Shown one piece after another: positions 1,971-10,428 of a stretch of 45,413 nt of DNA; the first letter of the stretch is position 1; the number at the start of each line of letters is the position of its first letter. The notes under the pieces are model-generated. The model was not told where the DNA came from and searched no databases. It saw nothing but the letters and a program-made list of their open reading frames with translations. This DNA is from Deltaproteobacteria bacterium RIFCSPLOWO2_12_FULL_60_19 (lineage in GTDB: Bacteria; Desulfobacterota; Binatia; UBA9968), in assembly GCA_001798595.1 (NCBI GenBank), contig MGSS01000005.1, forward strand, positions 1 through 45,413, in the 5' to 3' direction. The position numbers were made by a program, and so were the translations under genes.

Positions 1971-2718
1971 ACTTCCAACGGACCTCTTTGAGCCGCTCCA
2001 GCCGCCGCATCGCATTGTCCAACACGAGGCCGATCACTCCGATGATCGCCATCCCGGCGACCACCAGATCGTAACGGTTGCCCGCGTTCCGCGAGTCGAT
2101 GATGAGATAGCCGAGGCCCGATTTGAGCGCGATCATCTCAGCCGCAACCACCACCAACCAGGCGACTCCGAGGCTGATCCGCATTCCGACGATGATGTGC
2201 GGGAGGGCTGCCGGAACGACGACCTGGCGAAACAGCGCCGCGCCGCCGACGCCGAAGTTCTGCGCCGCCCGAATATACTGGCGCTCGATGGTATGAACCC
2301 CGGCCGTGGTCTCCAACACGATCGGAAAAAACGACGAAAGAAAGATCAGAAAAATCGGCGCCATGTTTCCCACCCCGAACCAGATGATGGCGAGCGGAAT
2401 CCAGGCGATGGGAGAGATGGGACGAAGGATCTGCGTCAGTGGATTTAGCGCCGCGAAAAGTCCGTGGAACCATCCCATGAAAATACCCAGCGGTATGGCG
2501 AGGGCGGCAGCCAGGAGATAACCGCTCCCGACCCTGAAAAGCGAAGCAGCTATATGATCGAGCAGAGTGCCCTGGCGCGCCAGCTCTACGATACCGAGAA
2601 CAACGCGCCACGGCGTGGGGACGATGATCGTCTCGCTCACCGCGACCGCCGCCCACCACAGAACTACCAAAACGCTTACCAGAACGGCCGGGGCGAGAAT
2701 TTTTGTTTTGCCTCTCAT
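1960..2718 (-). CDS. ABC importer permease, SsuC/TauC type
   Basis: This 252-residue membrane protein of the binding-protein-dependent transport family has six likely transmembrane segments. The EAA-type cytoplasmic loop that docks on the ATPase reads about AAQNFGVGGAALFRQVVVPAALPHI. The N-terminal helix (LAPAVLVSVLVVLWWAAVAVS) and the GIFMGWFHGLFAALNPL stretch are typical of sulfonate, nitrate or taurine permeases. It overlaps the upstream cupredoxin-like gene and the downstream ATPase gene, so the three are translationally coupled. No specificity can be read from the permease; the operon context of copper proteins is the only clue. Confidence 0.9.
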   Translation of the reverse strand: MRGKTKILAPAVLVSVLVVLWWAAVAVSETIIVPTPWRVVLGIVELARQGTLLDHIAASLFRVGSGYLLAAALAIPLGIFMGWFHGLFAALNPLTQILRPISPIAWIPLAIIWFGVGNMAPIFLIFLSSFFPIVLETTAGVHTIERQYIRAAQNFGVGGAALFRQVVVPAALPHIIVGMRISLGVAWLVVVAAEMIALKSGLGYLIIDSRNAGNRYDLVVAGMAIIGVIGLVLDNAMRRLERLKEVRWKYGR

Positions 2719-3200
2719 ATCCGTTCGTCTTCGTTTTCTGTCGCTTCACCGCTCGACGGGGCGGCATGGTCTTCGAAGAGGCGGGCCACGCGCCAGCGAA
2801 GCCGCGGCCAGCCTGCTTCAGGCGCCTTCTCGACGAGAATCGTAAGGCGCCCGGACTCGTGAAGCGGGCAGGTCAATTCGAACCTGGAGGGCACGCGCGC
2901 CGGAATCCGATAGCTTTGCCGAGGCATCAGGAGCACCGGCCCAAACAGCGCCGGCGCCTCATCCTCGTTCCTGAGCACCAGGATGTCCTGAACTCCCAAG
3001 GTCAGGCGAACCGTAGAAGGAATAACGTTGAGTTTCTCCCCCGCAACCTTGCGCGCCCAGGTGCCCCTGGGAATGACATAGACGAGCTCCCGTTGATCCG
3101 ACGACACCGGCGCCGCCGACGCCCAAAGAGCCGCCGCCAACGGAACAACTCCGATCGCGGAAAGCCCCCAAAGCAGAATGCGCGCGCGCCGCTTCCTCAT
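2715..3200 (-). CDS. Cupredoxin-like exported or anchored protein with incomplete copper site
   Basis: A basic start followed by one hydrophobic segment (ILLWGLSAIGVVPLAAALWAS) suggests a signal peptide or anchor. The rest is beta-rich and ends with a segment like the copper-site loop of cupredoxins: FELTCPLHESGRLTILV, i.e. C-P-L-H-x-x-G. The usual axial Met after the His is Arg, and the upstream ligand His expected in the NEDEAPALF segment is absent. The fold call is therefore reasonable but ordinary type 1 copper binding is doubtful. I use the ATG at 3200, preceded by GAGGTGAGG; a GTG at 3209 would overlap the PCu(A)C stop. It sits between the PCu(A)C gene and the permease gene. Confidence 0.55.
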   Translation of the reverse strand: MRKRRARILLWGLSAIGVVPLAAALWASAAPVSSDQRELVYVIPRGTWARKVAGEKLNVIPSTVRLTLGVQDILVLRNEDEAPALFGPVLLMPRQSYRIPARVPSRFELTCPLHESGRLTILVEKAPEAGWPRLRWRVARLFEDHAAPSSGEATENEDERI

Positions 3201-3205
3201 ATGCC

Positions 3206-3673
3206 TCACCTCACCTCGGCATCCACCGAGACCTGCCCGGCTTTCTCAAACGTGAGCGATGCTTTGATCTTCTCTCCGGGCGTGAGATCCCGTTTAAGCC
3301 GGAGCAGCATGAGGTGGTAGCCGCCCGGCTTCATCTCCAGCTTGCCCCCGGCCGGGATCTCGAATTTCGGCACGGGTCGCATCATCATCATTCCCGACAT
3401 CTCGTAGCTCTCGTGAAGCTCCACGGCATCCGCCGCCTCCGACGCGCCGGCGATCAGGACGTCCGTCGTCTTTCCCGCGTTGACGACGGTCGCGTAAACC
3501 GCGCCGTTTCCCCGCTCCGAAGCGGCGCCGGACTGCGTGCCGCCCCCCGCCATCGGGGCGCGCCGCGCCCAGGCGCTCTCGAGGCGGATCTCCGGCTTCG
3601 ACCGATCGCACGCCGCCGCCGTCGCCAGGAAAAAGATCGCCGCGAGTGTCAAACTCAACTTGTTGCCGTTCAT
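3206..3673 (-). CDS. Periplasmic copper chaperone PCu(A)C (lipoprotein)
   Basis: The protein has a lipoprotein signal ending ATAAAC, giving an anchored Cys22, and then a PCu(A)C domain. The copper(I) motif H-x10-M-x21-H-x-M is exact: His87, Met98, His120, Met122, with extra methionines at 92 and 95-97. Family members carry Cu(I) in the periplasm and hand it to cytochrome c oxidase, usually with SCO1-type proteins. The SCO1 gene is directly upstream and overlaps by 4 bp. An insertion rich in Gly/Ser (about 40-57) lies between strands. Role as a copper carrier is well supported; its partner in this operon is inferred. Confidence 0.88.
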   Translation of the reverse strand: MNGNKLSLTLAAIFFLATAAACDRSKPEIRLESAWARRAPMAGGGTQSGAASERGNGAVYATVVNAGKTTDVLIAGASEAADAVELHESYEMSGMMMMRPVPKFEIPAGGKLEMKPGGYHLMLLRLKRDLTPGEKIKASLTFEKAGQVSVDAEVR

Positions 3674-4269
3674 CGTTGTCTCTCCGTCAGCAGAAGTTTG
3701 ACGTCGTGGGCCATGTCCTCAACGGACGTTCCGAACGGCGCCATGATGCGAAGGTAGCCGGCGCCATCGATGAAGTGGATGGAAGCCGAGTGGTGGACGA
3801 GATAGGCGCCCGATTTTTTATCCACGACGGTTTTCCGGGTGGAGACGCCGTAGCCCTTCCGCACGCCCGTCAATTGCTCGGGGGTTCCCGTCAATCCGAG
3901 AAACGTCTTGTCGAAAGCGTTCATGTAGGCGCGCAGCCGCTCGACGGTGTCCCGCTCCGGATCCACCGTGACATAAATGACCTGCACGCGCTCCGCGTCG
4001 GCGCCGAGCTTTTTGCGGACCAACGCGAGATCGGCTAGGGTCGTCGGGCAAACGTCGGGACAGTAGGTATAGCCGAAACCCATCAGAACGACTTTCCCCT
4101 GGTAACGGCTTAAGCGGAATTCCGCGCCGTTCGAGGCCTTGAGCGTAAAGTCCGGCGCCTTGCGCGGCGGCTGCAAAACTCCCGCGCGGAATTCGGCGCC
4201 GTGAAGCGGCCCCACGGAGAGCCACAGGAGCGCCAACGTTACGACCGTCAATAATCTCCTGAACGCCAC
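3670..4269 (-). CDS. SCO1/SenC/PrrC family copper-binding thioredoxin-fold protein
   Basis: After a signal or anchor segment (RLLTVVTLALLWLSVGPLHG) comes a thioredoxin-fold domain with the SCO motif Y-C-P-D-V-C-P (Cys70, Cys74) and the distal ligand His near residue 160 in YLVHHSA. SCO proteins bind copper and reduce or metallate the CuA centre of cytochrome oxidase. The GTG at 4269 is preceded by AGGAGAGCC. The gene starts 11 bp after the solute-binding protein gene and overlaps the PCu(A)C gene, so it belongs to the same operon. Its presence inside an ABC importer operon rather than an oxidase operon is unusual. Confidence 0.9.
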   Translation of the reverse strand: MAFRRLLTVVTLALLWLSVGPLHGAEFRAGVLQPPRKAPDFTLKASNGAEFRLSRYQGKVVLMGFGYTYCPDVCPTTLADLALVRKKLGADAERVQVIYVTVDPERDTVERLRAYMNAFDKTFLGLTGTPEQLTGVRKGYGVSTRKTVVDKKSGAYLVHHSASIHFIDGAGYLRIMAPFGTSVEDMAHDVKLLLTERQR

Positions 4270-4280
4270 GGCTCTCCTTT

Positions 4281-5363
4281 CTACTGCGGCAGGGAAATCT
4301 TCGCCGGCTTGGAATTACGGGCGAAGCTCTCGTCCACATATTTTTCATAGGCGACGGCGCGCTTGAGGGTGCCCGCTTCCAAAGAGAGCTGCACCAGCTC
4401 GTCGAACTCGGCCCGGACCAGCTTGAGGTCTCCATAGGTGACCCGATCGGCGGGGTTTTCCATGACGAAGCGCAAAATCTCCGGGTCCTGGTTGAAAAAT
4501 GCCGGCCGGGCCGCGACGCGAATCGCATGGAGACGGTTCTGCGCAGCGGCATCGAGCCATCGTCCCGCCGACAGGACATAGTCCACCAGCCGCTGCACCT
4601 GGGCGCGATCCGATTTGATCAGCTCATCCCGGACCGTCAGCACGCAACAGATATAGTTGGGCCAGGCGTCGCGGGTCATATGGAGCGGCCGCGCGTACCC
4701 GGCCTTCTGCGCCACCGCTCCGAACGGCTCCCCCGTGGCGTAGGCATCGACGGACTTGGCGTAGAGCGCCGCCGGCATGTCGGGCGGATTCATTTCGACC
4801 AGCTCGATGTCTTTTTCCGTCACGCCGTACTTTTTCATGAGCTTGCGCACGAACAGATAATCGACGGCGAATCTGCTGGGAATGGCCACCCGCTTTCCTT
4901 TCAGGTTGCCGAAGTTATCTCCCGCGAAGTCGTTTCTCACCATCACCACCGCGCCGGAACGGTGGCCCAGCGCCACGATCTTGATCGGAATGCCGGCATC
5001 CGCCAGGTCCATCACCATGGGCGCCAGCATGTACGCCGCTTTGATCCTGCCGGTCATCAAAGCCTCCTTCAACTCCGGCCAGCCGCTGAACTTGCTGAAC
5101 TCGGTCGCGGCGCCGGCAGCGCTTTTGGAGGCGCCCTCTTTGGCGTCACTCTGCATCGCCATACAGGCGACGGGCAGCGTGAGGTTTCAGGTGACCGGCA
5201 ACCCTCCGACTCTCAGCGGCTCGGCGGCCGGCTGCGCCGCCATTCCTTCCCGGCCCTTCGGCGCATCGACGGGAAGCAGGGAAAGCATAAGAATGGCGAT
5301 AACCATCGCCGCTCTCCGGATCGTGTTTCGGAAGCGGGTAACAGCCGGTTGATGAAGATTCAT
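4281..5363 (-). CDS. NMT1/SsuA-like ABC solute-binding protein with in-frame TGA, predicted selenocysteine at residue 59
   Basis: One frame runs from ATG 5363 to 4281 and is broken only by TGA at 5189-5187 (codon 59). The start has a strong ribosome site (GGAGGAG, about 7 nt before ATG). A signal peptide follows (hydrophobic core MVIAILMLSLL), then mature sequence AAEPLRVGGLPVT, the TGA, and NLTLPVACMAMQ. The remainder is a complete NMT1-type binding domain with the family block PIKIVALGHRSGAVVMV. From memory, close relatives have Cys at this spot (LPVTC-x-L), so the TGA replaces Cys. A SECIS-like hairpin lies just downstream (5177-5151). The ATG at 5162 would give a protein without signal peptide or first strand and falls inside the hairpin, so I reject it as the true start. 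The protein would be 360 residues with Sec. It is first in an operon with SCO1, PCu(A)C, a cupredoxin-like protein, permease and ATPase. Confidence 0.78.
5151..5177 (-). promoter_or_regulatory. SECIS-like hairpin downstream of the TGA in the solute-binding protein gene
   Basis: On the minus strand, CGTCGCC (5172-5166) pairs perfectly with GGCGATG (5160-5154) around the 5-nt loop TGTAT. Below it, CTG (5177-5175) pairs with CAG (5153-5151) across a two-base CC bulge. The loop G is its second base, and 22 nt separate it from the TGA. Published rules for bacterial SECIS elements ask for a stem-loop right after the UGA with G among the first two loop bases about 16-37 nt away, and this fits. It would bind SelB to direct Sec insertion. 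Confidence 0.72.
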
Positions 5364-5407
5364 AGAGTAACTCCTCCGTCCGTGGAAAATGATTGTCTCA
5401 TGGTGTT

Positions 5408-6385
5408 TTACCGGGCATGCAGCTCCCGCGCAACATTCTTGGCGAAATAAGTGAGAATCATGTCGGCGCCGGCCCGCTTGATCGCGGTAAGCACTTCCCA
5501 CATGATTCTCCTCTCGTCAATCCAGCCGTTTTTCCCGGCGGCCTTGATCATCGAGTATTCGCCGCTGACGTTGTAGGCGGCGACCGGATAGCCGAACTTC
5601 TGCTTCACGCGATAGACGATATCGAGGTAGGCCATCGCCGGCTTGACCATGACGATATCCGCGCCTTCGCGGATATCCAGCTCGACCTCTCTCAAAGCCT
5701 CATCGGCGTTCGCCGGGTCCATCTGGTAGGAGCGGCGGTCGCCGAACTGCGGCGTCGATTCCGCGGCGTCGCGGAACGGCGCGTAAAAACCGGAGGCGTA
5801 CTTCGCCGCATAGGCCATGATGGCGACCTGCTCAAAGCCGTCTTGGTCGAGCGCCTTGCGGATCGCGCCGACCCTGCCGTCCATCATGTCCGAGGGCGCG
5901 ACGACGTCCGCGCCCGCGCGCGCGTGAGACAATGCCTCTTTCACGAGCAGCTCGATCGTTGCGTCGTTATCGACGTCGCCGTCCTTGACCACGCCGCAAT
6001 GGCCGTGATCGGTATATTCGCAGAGGCAGACATCCGTCATGACCAATAGCTCCGGAATCTTCCGCTTGATTTCCTGAATCGCCCGTTGCACCACGCCGTC
6101 GTCCGCGTAGGCCTCCGACCCCTGCCCGTCTTTGCGCTCGGGAATGCCGAACAGGATGACCGCCGGAATTCCGAGCGAGCCTGCTTCCTCGCACTCCTGC
6201 ACGGCGCGGTCAACCGAGAGTTGAGCGACGCCGGGCATGGAGGGAACGGGCCGCGCGCTATTTTTTCCCGGACCGACAAACAGCGGATAGATCAGGTCGT
6301 TCGCGCTCAGCGCCGTCTCACGCACCATCGCGCGCAGCTTCTCATTTTTGCGTAACCTCCGCGCGCGGTAAGTTGGAAATTCCAT
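5408..6385 (-). CDS. hemB: Porphobilinogen synthase (delta-aminolevulinic acid dehydratase)
   Basis: This 325-residue enzyme condenses two 5-aminolevulinate molecules to porphobilinogen in the cytoplasm. The Schiff-base lysine is Lys248 in [10 protein letters not shown], and the second active-site lysine lies in MAYAAKYAS. The zinc-type cysteines are present in [14 protein letters not shown] (Cys120, Cys122, Cys130), so it is a Zn-dependent form. I start at 6385 because [12 protein letters not shown] is the family start and GGAGG lies just upstream. It is the last hem gene of the block, and the selenocysteine binding-protein gene begins 44 bp after its stop, so the two groups may be co-transcribed. 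Confidence 0.96.
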
Positions 6386-6419
6386 AGCTCCTCCGAAAAA
6401 AACCGACGTTAGGCCTTTT

Positions 6420-6471
6420 CGCCTCACCCCTAACCCCTTACGTAAGGGGTGAAAGGTGAGGGGTTAGGCGC
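6420..6471. repeat. Extragenic palindrome between hemD and hemB
   Basis: The 93-bp hemD-hemB gap contains a perfect palindrome CCCCTTACGTAAGGGG (6434-6449) nested in a longer imperfect inverted repeat, with CGCCTCACCCCTAACC on the left and GGTGAGGGGTTAGGCG on the right. It can form a strong hairpin in either strand. As it lies inside an operon it may be an RNA-stability or attenuation hairpin, or a REP-like insertion. Confidence 0.6.
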
Positions 6472-6478
6472 CTTTTGC

Positions 6479-7297
6479 CTACTGCCTACTGAAATGTTCC
6501 GCGATCACCCGCGTAAGCCCCGGAATGGTAAATTCGCCGGCGACGACGTCGACTCGAATTCCCAACCTCTCAGCCGTCTCCCGCGTGATCGGACCGATGC
6601 AGGCGACCAGGCAGTTGCGGAGAAGATCCGGCGCGTCCTCCTCCGCAAAAAGCTCGGCAAAATGGTTTACGGTGCTTGAGCTGGTAAAAGTCACGACATC
6701 GATCTCTTTTTTACGCAACATCGACTTGAGCCTGGCTGCGTTCCCTTGGGCGGCCACGGTGCGATAAGCCTCGACTACATCCACGGTCGCGCCCCATCGC
6801 TCGAGCGTCAACGGCAGCACGTCTCGCGCCTCCGCCGCGCGCGGCAAAAGCACGCTCTTTCCTTTCACACGAGCCTTGCCCAATTTTTCCGCAATCGCTT
6901 CCGCGCGGTATTCCCCCGGCAGCAGCGCAACGCTAAGCCCCAGAGATCGAAGCTCCGCCGCCGTGCGCGGGCCGATGGCCGCGATGCGAGCGCCTCTGAG
7001 ATCACTCGCCCGCTTGTTCAGCCGGGTAAAACGCTTCCAGAAATGCTTCACGCCGTTGACGCTGGTAAAAATAATCCACTGGTATGTCTTGATCCGACGA
7101 ATCGCGAGATCCAGCGGCCCATAGTTGACGGGCGGAACAATCTCGATGGTCGGAAATTCGATTACTTCTCCGCCCAGCTCCTCGATCAACCGGACGAACT
7201 CGCCGGCCTGCGTGCGCGGGCGGGTGATAACGATGCGCCGGCCCGAGAGCGGCGGTTTTTCCCGGGCAGTCCCGGCCTTTCGCTTAACTCGCGCCAT
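6479..7297 (-). CDS. hemD: Uroporphyrinogen-III synthase
   Basis: This 272-residue protein closes and inverts ring D of hydroxymethylbilane to uroporphyrinogen III. It begins MARVKRK and shows the first-domain start GRRIVITRPRTQAGEFVRLIEELGG, then the second-domain stretch VVEAYRTVA and the block DVVTFTSSSTVNHFAELF, all typical of the two-domain HemD fold. I set the start at 7297, giving a 14-bp overlap with hemC. The family is poorly conserved, but the position between hemC and hemB makes the call firm. Confidence 0.93.
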   Translation of the reverse strand: MARVKRKAGTAREKPPLSGRRIVITRPRTQAGEFVRLIEELGGEVIEFPTIEIVPPVNYGPLDLAIRRIKTYQWIIFTSVNGVKHFWKRFTRLNKRASDLRGARIAAIGPRTAAELRSLGLSVALLPGEYRAEAIAEKLGKARVKGKSVLLPRAAEARDVLPLTLERWGATVDVVEAYRTVAAQGNAARLKSMLRKKEIDVVTFTSSSTVNHFAELFAEEDAPDLLRNCLVACIGPITRETAERLGIRVDVVAGEFTIPGLTRVIAEHFSRQ

Positions 7298-8222
7298 GCG
7301 CCGAACTCCCTCGCTGTTGCAGCAAAATCTCCGCCGCGCCCATGTCCAGTAAACGGATCGCCAGTTGCTCGCCCAACCGCTCTCCCGCCGCCGCGTCGCC
7401 CGCGATCTCGTCGCGCAGCAGTTTTCCGCCGTCGGGATCGGCGACGACTCCCGTAAGACGCACCCTGCCTCCGTCGAACTGCGCCCGCGCCCCGACCGGC
7501 ACCAGACAGCCGCCGCCGAGCCGGCGCAAAAAAGCCCTCTCCGCCGCGACTTCATGCGCCGCAACCGGATCGTGAAGGAACGCCAGCTCGCCGATTGCAC
7601 CGTCGCCCGCGCGCGTCTCCAAGGCCAGCGCCCCCTGCCCGACGGCGCCGAGACAGATCTCCGGCGCGAGATATTCGTCGATGCGGCTTTCCTGGCCGAT
7701 GCGTTTCAACCCGGCCACCGCCATCACCAGCGCGTTGACCTCGCCCTGGTCCAATTTTTTGAGCCGCGTATCGACGTTGCCGCGGATCGGGCGCACGGCA
7801 AGATCGGGCCGATAGTGCAGAATCTGCGCGCGCCGGCGCAGGCTGCCGGTACCGATGACGGATCCGGAGGGCAGACTGCCGAGAGATCGGCCGTCGGCGC
7901 TGACCAGCGCGTCGCGCGCGTCTTCGCGCTCCGGCACCGCGGCGATGACCAGACCGGCAGCGAGCTCCGTCGGGAGGTCTTTCATCGAGTGAACGGCGAT
8001 GTCGATTTCTTTCTCGATCAGCGCGTCCTCGATCTCTTTGACGAACACGCCCTTCCCCCCGATCGCCGCCAGCGAGGCATCGAGAAAGCGGTCGCCGCTC
8101 GTTTTGATCGTAACGATCTCCACCCGCCGGCCGGGATAACGCTCCTCCAGCCGCCGCTTCACCCAATTCGCCTGCGCCAGCGCCAAGGCGCTGCCGCGAC
8201 TGCCGATACGAATAACGTTCAT
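7284..8222 (-). CDS. hemC: Hydroxymethylbilane synthase (porphobilinogen deaminase)
   Basis: This 312-residue enzyme polymerises four porphobilinogens into hydroxymethylbilane on a covalently bound dipyrromethane cofactor. The cofactor cysteine is Cys239 in LRRLGGGCLVPVGA. The N-terminal IRIGSRGSALALAQANWV, the loop HSMKDLPTEL and TGSLRRRAQ with its substrate-binding arginines are all present. It overlaps hemD by 14 bp and follows hemA after a 97-bp gap filled with an AT-rich inverted repeat. Confidence 0.97.
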   Translation of the reverse strand: MNVIRIGSRGSALALAQANWVKRRLEERYPGRRVEIVTIKTSGDRFLDASLAAIGGKGVFVKEIEDALIEKEIDIAVHSMKDLPTELAAGLVIAAVPEREDARDALVSADGRSLGSLPSGSVIGTGSLRRRAQILHYRPDLAVRPIRGNVDTRLKKLDQGEVNALVMAVAGLKRIGQESRIDEYLAPEICLGAVGQGALALETRAGDGAIGELAFLHDPVAAHEVAAERAFLRRLGGGCLVPVGARAQFDGGRVRLTGVVADPDGGKLLRDEIAGDAAAGERLGEQLAIRLLDMGAAEILLQQRGSSAHGAS

Positions 8223-8236
8223 GTCTTAGCCATCAA

Positions 8237-8318
8237 TGCAAAATGCAAAGCGCAAATTGAAAAATGCAAAATGAAGGAGAGATCCGAGCAATTTTGCAAT
8301 TTGCATTTTGCAATTTGA
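8237..8318. repeat. AT-rich low-complexity inverted repeat (GCAAAATGCAAA type)
   Basis: The hemA-hemC gap holds several near-copies of TGCAAAATGCAAA in one orientation (8237-8274) facing the complementary TTTGCATTTTGCAATTTG series (8289-8318). Together they make a long imperfect hairpin. Similar sequence recurs around 30041-30184. Composition is far from the GC-rich coding background. It looks like an extragenic repeat rather than a regulatory site for one gene. Confidence 0.65.
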
Positions 8319-8319
8319 A

Positions 8320-9603
8320 CTACTTGTTTTCAAGGCCAAACAGCTTCCTGAGCGCCTCGACGTAGATCGCTTCGTCTTCGTCGTCCGGCGGCCGCTTCAG
8401 CCGCGAGATCGGCGCGTGCAAAATCTTGTTGATTATCGCCGCCGTCATATCTTCGATCGCCTGCTTTTCTTTCTCCGAGAGCTCCTTGAGGCTGCTGCGA
8501 AGAGATTTTTCCAACTCCGCCTGCCGGATCTCCTCCAGCCTTTGGCGCAACGCGACGATGGTCGGCACATGGTCCAGCGAGCCAACCCAGCGCAGGAAGC
8601 CGCCCACTTCCTCGTCGACGATCTCCTCCGCCTTGCGCACTTCGCCGGCGCGCCCCTGGAGATTCTCTTTGGCCACCGCTTCGAGATCGTCGATGTTATA
8701 GAGATAGACGTTGTCGATCTCGTTGATCCGCGGATCGAAATTCTGCCGGTCGCCGATGTCGATAAAAAACATCGCCCGCTGTTTTCTCTGCTTCAGCGTC
8801 TCCTCCACCGTCTCCGGCCTGAGCAGGAATTCCGGCGCGCTCGCGCAGCCGATCACCAGGTCCGCCAGCTTGAGGTACCGGGGGAATTCCTCGAAGCGGA
8901 TGGGGTTGCCGCGAAACTCGGCCGCCGCCTCGACCGCGCGCTCGAAAGTGCGGTTTGTGACCATGAGGCTGCTGACGCCGTTGCGTTGGAGGTGTCGCGC
9001 CACGAGCTGGCCCATCTTACCCGCTCCGATGAGCATCACCGTCTTGTTTTCCAGGCGATCGAAGATCCGCTTCGCCAACTCCACCGCCACCGAGCTGACC
9101 GACACCGCGCGGCTCGCGATCCCCGTCTCGGTCCTGACCCGCTTGGCGACGGAAAAGGCGCGATGGAAGAAACGATGGAGCACCGCCCCGACGGAACCCG
9201 CCTCCTGCGCGATGAGATAATAGTCCTTGAGCTGGCCGAGAATCTGCGGCTCCCCCACCACCATCGAGTCGAGGCTGGCGGCGACGCGAAACAGGTGACG
9301 GATGGCTTGATCGCCGGCGTAGGCATAGAGATGCTCGTCCAAATTGCCGCCGCCGGCCGACGCCGATTCCTGCTCGACGAGAAACCTCTTGATCTCCCGG
9401 AACGCGGCCTGCTCGTCGGAGGCCGCCGCGACCACCTCGACGCGGTTGCAGGTCGAAAGGATCACCCCTTCGTCGACCGACGCTAAAGAACGGAGCCGCT
9501 CAAGGGCGTGTTTCAGGAACGCCTTCTCAAAAGCGACCCGCTCGCGCACCTCCACCGGCGCCGTGCGGTGATTGAGGCCGACAATCACGATCGCTTTGTC
9601 CAC
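8320..9603 (-). CDS. hemA: Glutamyl-tRNA reductase
   Basis: This 427-residue NADPH enzyme reduces glutamyl-tRNA(Glu) to glutamate-1-semialdehyde, the first committed step of the C5 haem route. The catalytic cysteine is Cys52 in ILSTCNRVEV. The start VGLNHRTAPVEVRER, the block VGEPQILGQLKDYY and the Rossmann motif VMLIGAGKMGQLVARHL are present, followed by the helical dimerisation tail. Its start lies 3 bp after the stop of the cytochrome assembly gene, so the two are coupled. The pathway position implies a C5 organism; no hemL is in the window. Confidence 0.97.
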   Translation of the reverse strand: MDKAIVIVGLNHRTAPVEVRERVAFEKAFLKHALERLRSLASVDEGVILSTCNRVEVVAAASDEQAAFREIKRFLVEQESASAGGGNLDEHLYAYAGDQAIRHLFRVAASLDSMVVGEPQILGQLKDYYLIAQEAGSVGAVLHRFFHRAFSVAKRVRTETGIASRAVSVSSVAVELAKRIFDRLENKTVMLIGAGKMGQLVARHLQRNGVSSLMVTNRTFERAVEAAAEFRGNPIRFEEFPRYLKLADLVIGCASAPEFLLRPETVEETLKQRKQRAMFFIDIGDRQNFDPRINEIDNVYLYNIDDLEAVAKENLQGRAGEVRKAEEIVDEEVGGFLRWVGSLDHVPTIVALRQRLEEIRQAELEKSLRSSLKELSEKEKQAIEDMTAAIINKILHAPISRLKRPPDDEDEAIYVEALRKLFGLENK

Positions 9604-9606
9604 GAT

Positions 9607-10428
9607 CTACTCGAAGCTCCCCGCATGGCGGCTGGGAAAAAGCGAGCTTCCCCAGAGAAAATAGCCGAGCACGACGATGAAGCCGACGATGGTTAAAAAC
9701 GCCGCCTTCCGCCCTCTCCAGCCGGCGGCGACTCGTCCTTGAAGGAGCGAGCCGTAGAGCAGCCAGGTGATCGCCGAGGAGATCTGGCGCGGGTCCCAGG
9801 ACCAATAATCCCCCCAGTGGGCGCGCGCCAAAAAGCTGCCGGCAAGAATGCCAAGGGTCATCAAAGGAAATCCCCAAACCAGAAAGACGTAATTGAGCCG
9901 GTCGAGCGTCTCGAGCGAGGGAAGTCCTTTGTAAAGCGCGGTCGTCCGCTTGCTTTTCAGTCGATACTCCTGGATGAGGTACATGAGGCTCACGGCAAAG
10001 GCCAAAGTGAAAACAGCGTTTCCCAACATGGCGAGCGTGACGTGGAGCGGAACCCAATAGGTCTTGAGCGCCGGCGGAAGCTCTCCGCCGCCGGGGCCGA
10101 AGGCCACCGCGGCAAGCGACATGAGAAAGGCCAGGGGAGCGATAACGCACCCCAACACCGCCAGCCGGTACTTGAGTTGAGCCAACAGGTAAACCCCGAC
10201 CATCGCCCAGGAGAATAAAGAGAGCGCCTCGCGGAACTCCGTCACGGGAGGATAGCCGAGATGAAAAAAATGGAAGCCCAGCGCCGCGCCGTGCAGTAGA
10301 AAGCCGGCCAGCAGGACGACCGGCGATACGCGCGCGAGGAGATCTCGCGGCAACGCGGCATAGACGATAAACGCGCCGGCGCCAACCAGATATAAAATCG
10401 CCGCGCCTTTCAGCAACAAAACATCCAT
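9607..10428 (-). CDS. HemX/CcsA-like cytochrome c assembly membrane protein
   Basis: This 273-residue protein has about eight hydrophobic segments and the tryptophan-rich signature HWGDYWSWDPRQISSAITWLLYG near residues 215-238, the haem-handling loop shared by CcsA, CcmC and HemX proteins. Histidines that could ligate haem lie on both sides (for example HVTLAML and the HAAALGFHFFHLGY region). In many bacteria hemX precedes hemA and adjusts GluTR level or handles haem for cytochrome c synthesis. Here it heads the hem block. CcsA usually works with a Ccs1/ResB partner, which is not in the window. Confidence 0.87.
   Translation of the reverse strand: MDVLLLKGAAILYLVGAGAFIVYAALPRDLLARVSPVVLLAGFLLHGAALGFHFFHLGYPPVTEFREALSLFSWAMVGVYLLAQLKYRLAVLGCVIAPLAFLMSLAAVAFGPGGGELPPALKTYWVPLHVTLAMLGNAVFTLAFAVSLMYLIQEYRLKSKRTTALYKGLPSLETLDRLNYVFLVWGFPLMTLGILAGSFLARAHWGDYWSWDPRQISSAITWLLYGSLLQGRVAAGWRGRKAAFLTIVGFIVVLGYFLWGSSLFPSRHAGSFE

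Follow-up and report, generated by a model that had tools for sequence, protein, structure and literature searches.

The gene at 4281–5363 on the minus strand of the window (the whole 45,413-nucleotide stretch of DNA analyzed here) is supported by sequence comparison as a true selenoprotein gene. It encodes an NMT1-type ABC solute-binding protein of 360 residues (the coordinates include the stop codon), with selenocysteine (Sec) predicted at codon 59. A cassette of copper-protein genes, to which the earlier sequence-only reading of this DNA made no reference, provides the best clue to its function. We put the probability of the overall explanation, in which a selenoprotein of the binding-protein type carries a soft-metal site and belongs to a copper-linked cassette, at roughly 0.6.

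Translation with TGA read as Sec confirmed a single frame, in which the TGA at 5187–5189 (−), within the context GLPVT-U-NLTLPVAC, is the sole internal stop of the 360 codons; an ordinary table 11 reading of the gene gives only a 293-residue stub. The good ribosome-binding site reported earlier is a GGAGG at 5373–5377 (−), directly 5′ of the ATG at 5361–5363, and the predicted signal-like segment corresponds to a hydrophobic stretch seen by eye at the N terminus. The full NMT1-type domain was also recovered, as Pfam NMT1_2 matches residues 45 to 281 (E = 2.6e-32). The structure predicted for residues 44 to 360 has a mean pLDDT of 93.5, and its fold matches the binding proteins of the NrtA, CmpA, TauA, and SsuA class. 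Thus, the Pfam match above cut-off, the fold, and the presence of permease and ATPase partners identify the product as an NMT1_2/ABC solute-binding protein.

Relatives were collected by a pattern-based search of named species genomes, with the best 80 of 107 retained, and kin genomes were searched as well. Among the 87 matching frames, the closest 14 comprised three with TGA (the window, L016 from Rokuibacteriota, and L024 from Methylomirabilota) and 11 with Cys, which represent 10 distinct sequences because L012 is contained in L021. In the phylum of L016, 3 of 95 genomes matched at E ≤ 1e-40, and all three carry the TGA, including a new locus, L109. An in-frame TGA at codon 59 is therefore found in four genomes, and the proteins of L016, L024, and L109 are 56 to 68% identical to that of the window. 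A search of the order to which the Roseateles genome G151 belongs gave matches at E ≤ 1e-60 in 4 of 399 genomes, namely, L018 again and L121 to L123, all three of the latter with Cys at position 59. Six of 148 genomes of the window's class matched at E ≤ 1e-40, with a stop in the window gene only, and a phylum sample of 395 genomes gave two matches. The 24 other genomes searched from the window's family yielded no close copy and one remote match, L014, with at most 21 candidates scored per genome. In total, Cys occupies exactly the codon 59 position in 13 distinct close relatives, and it is also found there in the looser L015 and the remote L014. Among the 71 distant loci, 70 were aligned, and these have Thr (62), Ser (5), or Ala (3) at this position. 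The earlier statement that relatives have Cys here was thus borne out: the alignment contains both Cys and TGA forms, and the TGA has homologs in other genomes (L016, L024, and L109), which together mark the gene as one for a selenoprotein.

The machinery for Sec insertion is present in the window's genome (G000), which carries selA, selB, and selD near one another on contig C142 and tRNA-Sec on contig C153 (76.6 bits; also detected by ARAGORN). A genome devoid of selB and tRNA-Sec, named earlier as an argument against Sec, is not what we found. Across all four TGA genomes, selA scored over the cut-off, and selD was present with one in-frame TGA in each, which suggests that these genomes decode TGA as Sec. 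Both selB and tRNA-Sec were found in all three TGA genomes tested. More broadly, selB exceeded its cut-off in 9 of 14 genome entries (G238, the genome of L109, excluded), namely, the three TGA genomes and 6 of 11 with Cys; therefore, the cassette does not require Sec. Hits for tRNA-Sec passed the cut-off in 11 of 13 entries, and the eight with more than 65 bits are the same eight that have selB. Because 5 of 14 control genomes also passed, the hits of 47 to 50 bits were taken to be other long-armed tRNAs. The SelD gene of the window's genome (L115, G000:C142:20857-21783) lies close to selA and selB and itself has an in-frame TGA.

A SECIS-like hairpin spans 5146–5182 (−), with its upper stem and apical loop at 5155–5171. 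The upper part is as originally described, with 7 bp (CGTCGCC/GGCGATG) and a 5-nt loop (TGTAT) with G at position 2; the lower stem, given as 3 bp, is present but longer (4 + 4 pairs). The loop begins 21 nt from the TGA. We scored hairpins by the bSECIS rules as set out in the available text of a 2026 review (PMC13188914): a loop of 3 to 9 nt, a stem of 4 to 16 bp, G in loop position 1 or 2, a spacing of 16 to 37 nt, and an energy of −7.5 or lower. The window hairpin conforms to these published rules, as claimed (−10.7), and so do those of L016 (−12.5) and L109 (−8.3; a 3-nt loop with G first); these are the three TGA genes, of four, that were scored. With RNAfold, the window hairpin reached −20.6 kcal/mol (z = −4.0), a value that none of 200 shuffles attained, and the L109 stretch gave z = −3.4, while those of L016 (−0.57) and L024 (−0.71) folded no better than shuffles. 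The rules were also satisfied by 18.7% of 5000 synonymous recodings of the window, 44% of those of L016, and 16% of those of L109; 5.1% of the 5000 window recodings were as stable as the native sequence. A qualifying hairpin was present elsewhere in the stretch in 2 of 10 Cys genes. With this proportion of window recodings and of Cys genes qualifying, we dismissed the hairpin alone as proof of Sec. What excludes chance is evidence from homologs and not from the hairpin: three other assemblies have TGA at this very codon.

A stem at a fixed place was also compared between the two groups of genes. Pairing of positions +19 to +24 with +30 to +35 from the codon is complete (6 of 6 pairs) in all four TGA genes, L024 included, and in none of 14 Cys genes, each of which retains one to four of the six pairs. 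All four TGA genes have G at loop position 2 and U at position 3; the loop G is non-discriminating, because it lies within the codon for Cys67 and is present in 13 of the 14 Cys genes. In L109 (L109:1654-1707), Ser replaces Cys67, and the loop sequence is changed with G2 and U3 kept. Position 70, encoded by the 3′ arm of the hairpin, is Met or Ile in the TGA proteins and Arg, Lys, Asn, or Tyr in the 13 close Cys proteins. Covariation across the four hairpin sequences amounted to one two-sided change, which was not significant, as 140 of 500 shuffles did as well.

Downstream of the TGA, dN/dS was 0.23 to 0.44 in the six pairs of TGA genes (296 to 301 codons). A tree was built with 27 rows, of which 4 have Sec, 11 have Cys, and 12 were taken from the 71 distant ones. 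Its Sec rows diverge below a Cys clade of ten rows (100/99), and L015, a Cys row on a long branch, falls outside them. A single gain of Sec followed by one later swap to Cys on the way to the ten-row clade, or repeated gain of Sec, would explain this topology. The homologs with TGA or Cys, the stem, the machinery, and the selection thus support the earlier proposal that Sec is inserted at this codon. Ribosomes would almost certainly read TGA59 as Sec, guided by the SECIS hairpin and the genome's own SelA, SelB, SelD, and tRNA-Sec.

The binding-protein gene is the first of six genes, all on the minus strand. It is followed by genes for an SCO1/SenC family protein (3670–4269; Pfam SCO1-SenC, 3e-40), a PCuAC copper chaperone family protein (3206–3673; Pfam PCuAC, 2.2e-33), a cupredoxin-like protein with a Cys-x2-His motif (2715–3209), an ABC permease (1960–2718; Pfam BPD_transp_1, with SaoP as its best NCBIfam match, below cut-off), and an ABC ATPase (1230–2015; Pfam ABC_tran). 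The cupredoxin-like protein had no match in a Pfam search. Its Cys-x2-His motif is invariant in all eight aligned copies, its N terminus is hydrophobic by eye, and its structural model (pLDDT 80) gives modest-scoring matches to copper-bound cupredoxins and CuA domains. Upstream, the cassette adjoins a heme cluster at 5408–10428 (−) that encodes ALAD (HemB), HemD, glutamyl-tRNA reductase (HemA), and a cytochrome c assembly protein.

Among 15 distinct close loci (L121 to L123 left out), SCO1 follows the binding-protein gene in 13, and 12 of these 13 also have the cupredoxin-like gene; no SCO1 was found near the gene in L024 or L015. In L016, a PCuAC-like protein was recognized by eye only. The flanks of four loci were mutually dissimilar except for a glutamate dehydrogenase before both L017 and L019. 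As the flanking genes differ among loci, the cassette looks like a unit. In L022, a TonB-dependent receptor, a possible outer-membrane partner, precedes the cassette (L022:5328-7739). The more distant loci L025 to L095 represent a sizeable sister family of the Thr type (GYMPVITNLAAPLLDYA), with members in Desulfobacterales, Gammaproteobacteria, and other groups. In the flanks covered for these 71 loci, the shortest of which span only 3 to 5 kb, no SCO1, PCuAC, or cupredoxin-like gene was found; an ATPase was present in 68 and a permease in 58.

Judged from sequence and gene neighborhood, the binding protein is proposed to be a component of a soft-metal importer, with Cu(I) as the likeliest metal, and its copper-handling neighbors suggest that Sec helps to catch copper or a similar metal. 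In the NMT1/NrtA-type fold, the loop that leaves strand 1 is located at the cleft. Sec59 would be part of this loop, close to the cleft, where it could make up a soft-metal site together with His134 and Cys239/Cys240; the most likely ligand would be Cu(I) or a copper complex. Compared with the 70 distant sequences, the 14 of the close clade have Cys, His, or Met of their own at positions 59, 67, 103, 118, 134, 141, 181, 229, 240, and 324; the distant clade of Thr type likewise has specific His or Met residues, at columns 52, 55, 136, 163, and 168, and the candidate ligands were chosen after the fact. These clade-specific columns and the GH and CC motifs shared with the zinc-titled structure 3un6, taken with the neighboring genes, point to a soft-metal site, for which copper is the best guess. 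We give an even chance that the ABC transporter imports copper or that the binding protein exchanges copper with its SCO1, PCuAC, and cupredoxin-like neighbors, which would serve the assembly of copper enzymes. A more elaborate scenario is only tentative: a new class of copper ABC importer with Sec as a direct Cu(I) ligand, in which Sec came early and was later replaced by Cys in Pseudomonadota, and which feeds SCO1, PCuAC, and the cupredoxin-like protein for oxidase assembly.

The principal alternative, which we regard as unlikely though deserving of attention, keeps the selenoprotein but assigns it a different thiophilic cargo, which could be mercury, organomercury, arsenite, a thiol, or a compound of selenium. 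The SCO1-type protein would then act as a thiol reductase that holds Sec59 in its reduced state. Of the selenoprotein models, only SaoX matches the binding protein, the permease's match to SaoP reaches 187 bits, and arsenite-bound AioX is among the fold matches. Moreover, L024 has the TGA gene and a transporter with neither SCO1 nor the other copper genes found nearby, which counts both in favor of this alternative and against a role in copper handling. On the other hand, the PCuAC and cupredoxin-like proteins of the window's cassette belong to copper-protein families, and a search of the window's genome at E ≤ 1e-30, which scored 37 of 97 first-look candidates, did not find SaoX. A soft-metal site with copper as the likeliest ligand remains the reading that we prefer.

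Quite improbable is a catalytic protein with a binding-protein fold, which would use Sec59 as a nucleophile and would not itself be a transporter subunit. This possibility is raised by fold matches to enzymes of this fold such as DszB (“C27S mutant”) and MqnD (“Cys11 modified”), known to us by titles and residue ranges only, in which the Cys named in the title lies near the same N-terminal part. However, the permease, and the ATPase where the sequence reaches, share the gene's unit, and no enzyme family appears among the domain matches or above cut-off in NCBIfam. Last, a sequencing or assembly error, a pseudogene, or a mis-binned contig, for which one could cite the draft state of the genome (162 contigs, the window lying on one of them) and a hairpin that is only modest when taken alone, is hardly credible and was ruled out by the identical TGA in three further assemblies (four concordant in all), by the purifying selection after the TGA, by the Sec machinery in the genome, and by a tetranucleotide composition whose correlation is highest, among 11 loci compared, with the selB (0.93) and selD (0.92) loci of the same genome, the value for the short tRNA-Sec locus being 0.82, barely above that for L024 (0.81).

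Among solved structures, the nearest fold is Staphylococcus aureus 3un6 (“with Zinc bound”; Z = 36.8, rmsd 1.9 over 287 residues, 28% identity). Like the window protein, it has GH and CC motifs; in contrast, its LPIT motif is followed by His and not by Cys or Sec. The nitrate- and bicarbonate-binding proteins NrtA and CmpA are alike in fold (Z about 33) at 17 to 18% identity. SCO1 and PCuAC deliver copper to cytochrome oxidase, and the window gene has a neighbor from each of these two families. To our knowledge, such systems usually operate without a dedicated NMT1-type importer.

Most characterized selenoproteins have a thioredoxin-like fold with a redox motif, according to the available text of the 2026 review, which lists 119 prokaryotic families, among them the binding proteins SaoX, SaoB, and BtuF (PMC13188914). 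The earlier statement that no Sec-containing binding protein of this family had been described thus needs qualification: such binding proteins are listed there, and the SaoX model matches the window protein weakly, but far below its cut-off. With 51.2 bits against a cut-off of 300, membership in SaoX (NF040735) was rejected, as was that of the permease in SaoP (NF040733; cut-off 295). Eight NCBIfam (20.0) models matched the binding protein; none reached its cut-off, and SaoB was not among them.

SaoX resembles the window protein in being a binding protein beside an ABC permease. Its Sec motif is UxP in the text available (PMC13188914), and in an ungapped comparison by eye its Sec would fall three residues later (GYYNCDHMTAAP versus GGLPVTUNLTLP). 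SaoX was detected in 1 of 45 genome entries at E ≤ 1e-30 and in 3 of 395 phylum genomes at E ≤ 1e-60; the three genes (L111 to L113) are without a TGA, and no copper genes were found within about 4 kb around them. SaoB and BtuF are, like the window protein, binding proteins predicted to carry Sec, but their motifs, CUxxT and CxxU, differ from its own (PMC13188914, text available).

Among the literature matches listed, as represented by titles and abstract openings, there was no such cassette and, apart from the Sao system, no NMT1 protein with Sec. In both name and Sec motif, the window protein falls outside all 119 families as cataloged in the available text of the review (PMC13188914). Because the SaoX score lies below cut-off and no NCBIfam model was reached, we consider it a new selenoprotein family among the Sec-containing binding proteins, and in a new context. 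The Cys version in Roseateles saccharophilus DSM 654 (L018) makes the function of the cassette testable. Compared with the 119 families of the review, as far as its available text goes (PMC13188914), our analysis adds one that is absent and places Sec in the binding protein of a transporter within a copper-protein operon.
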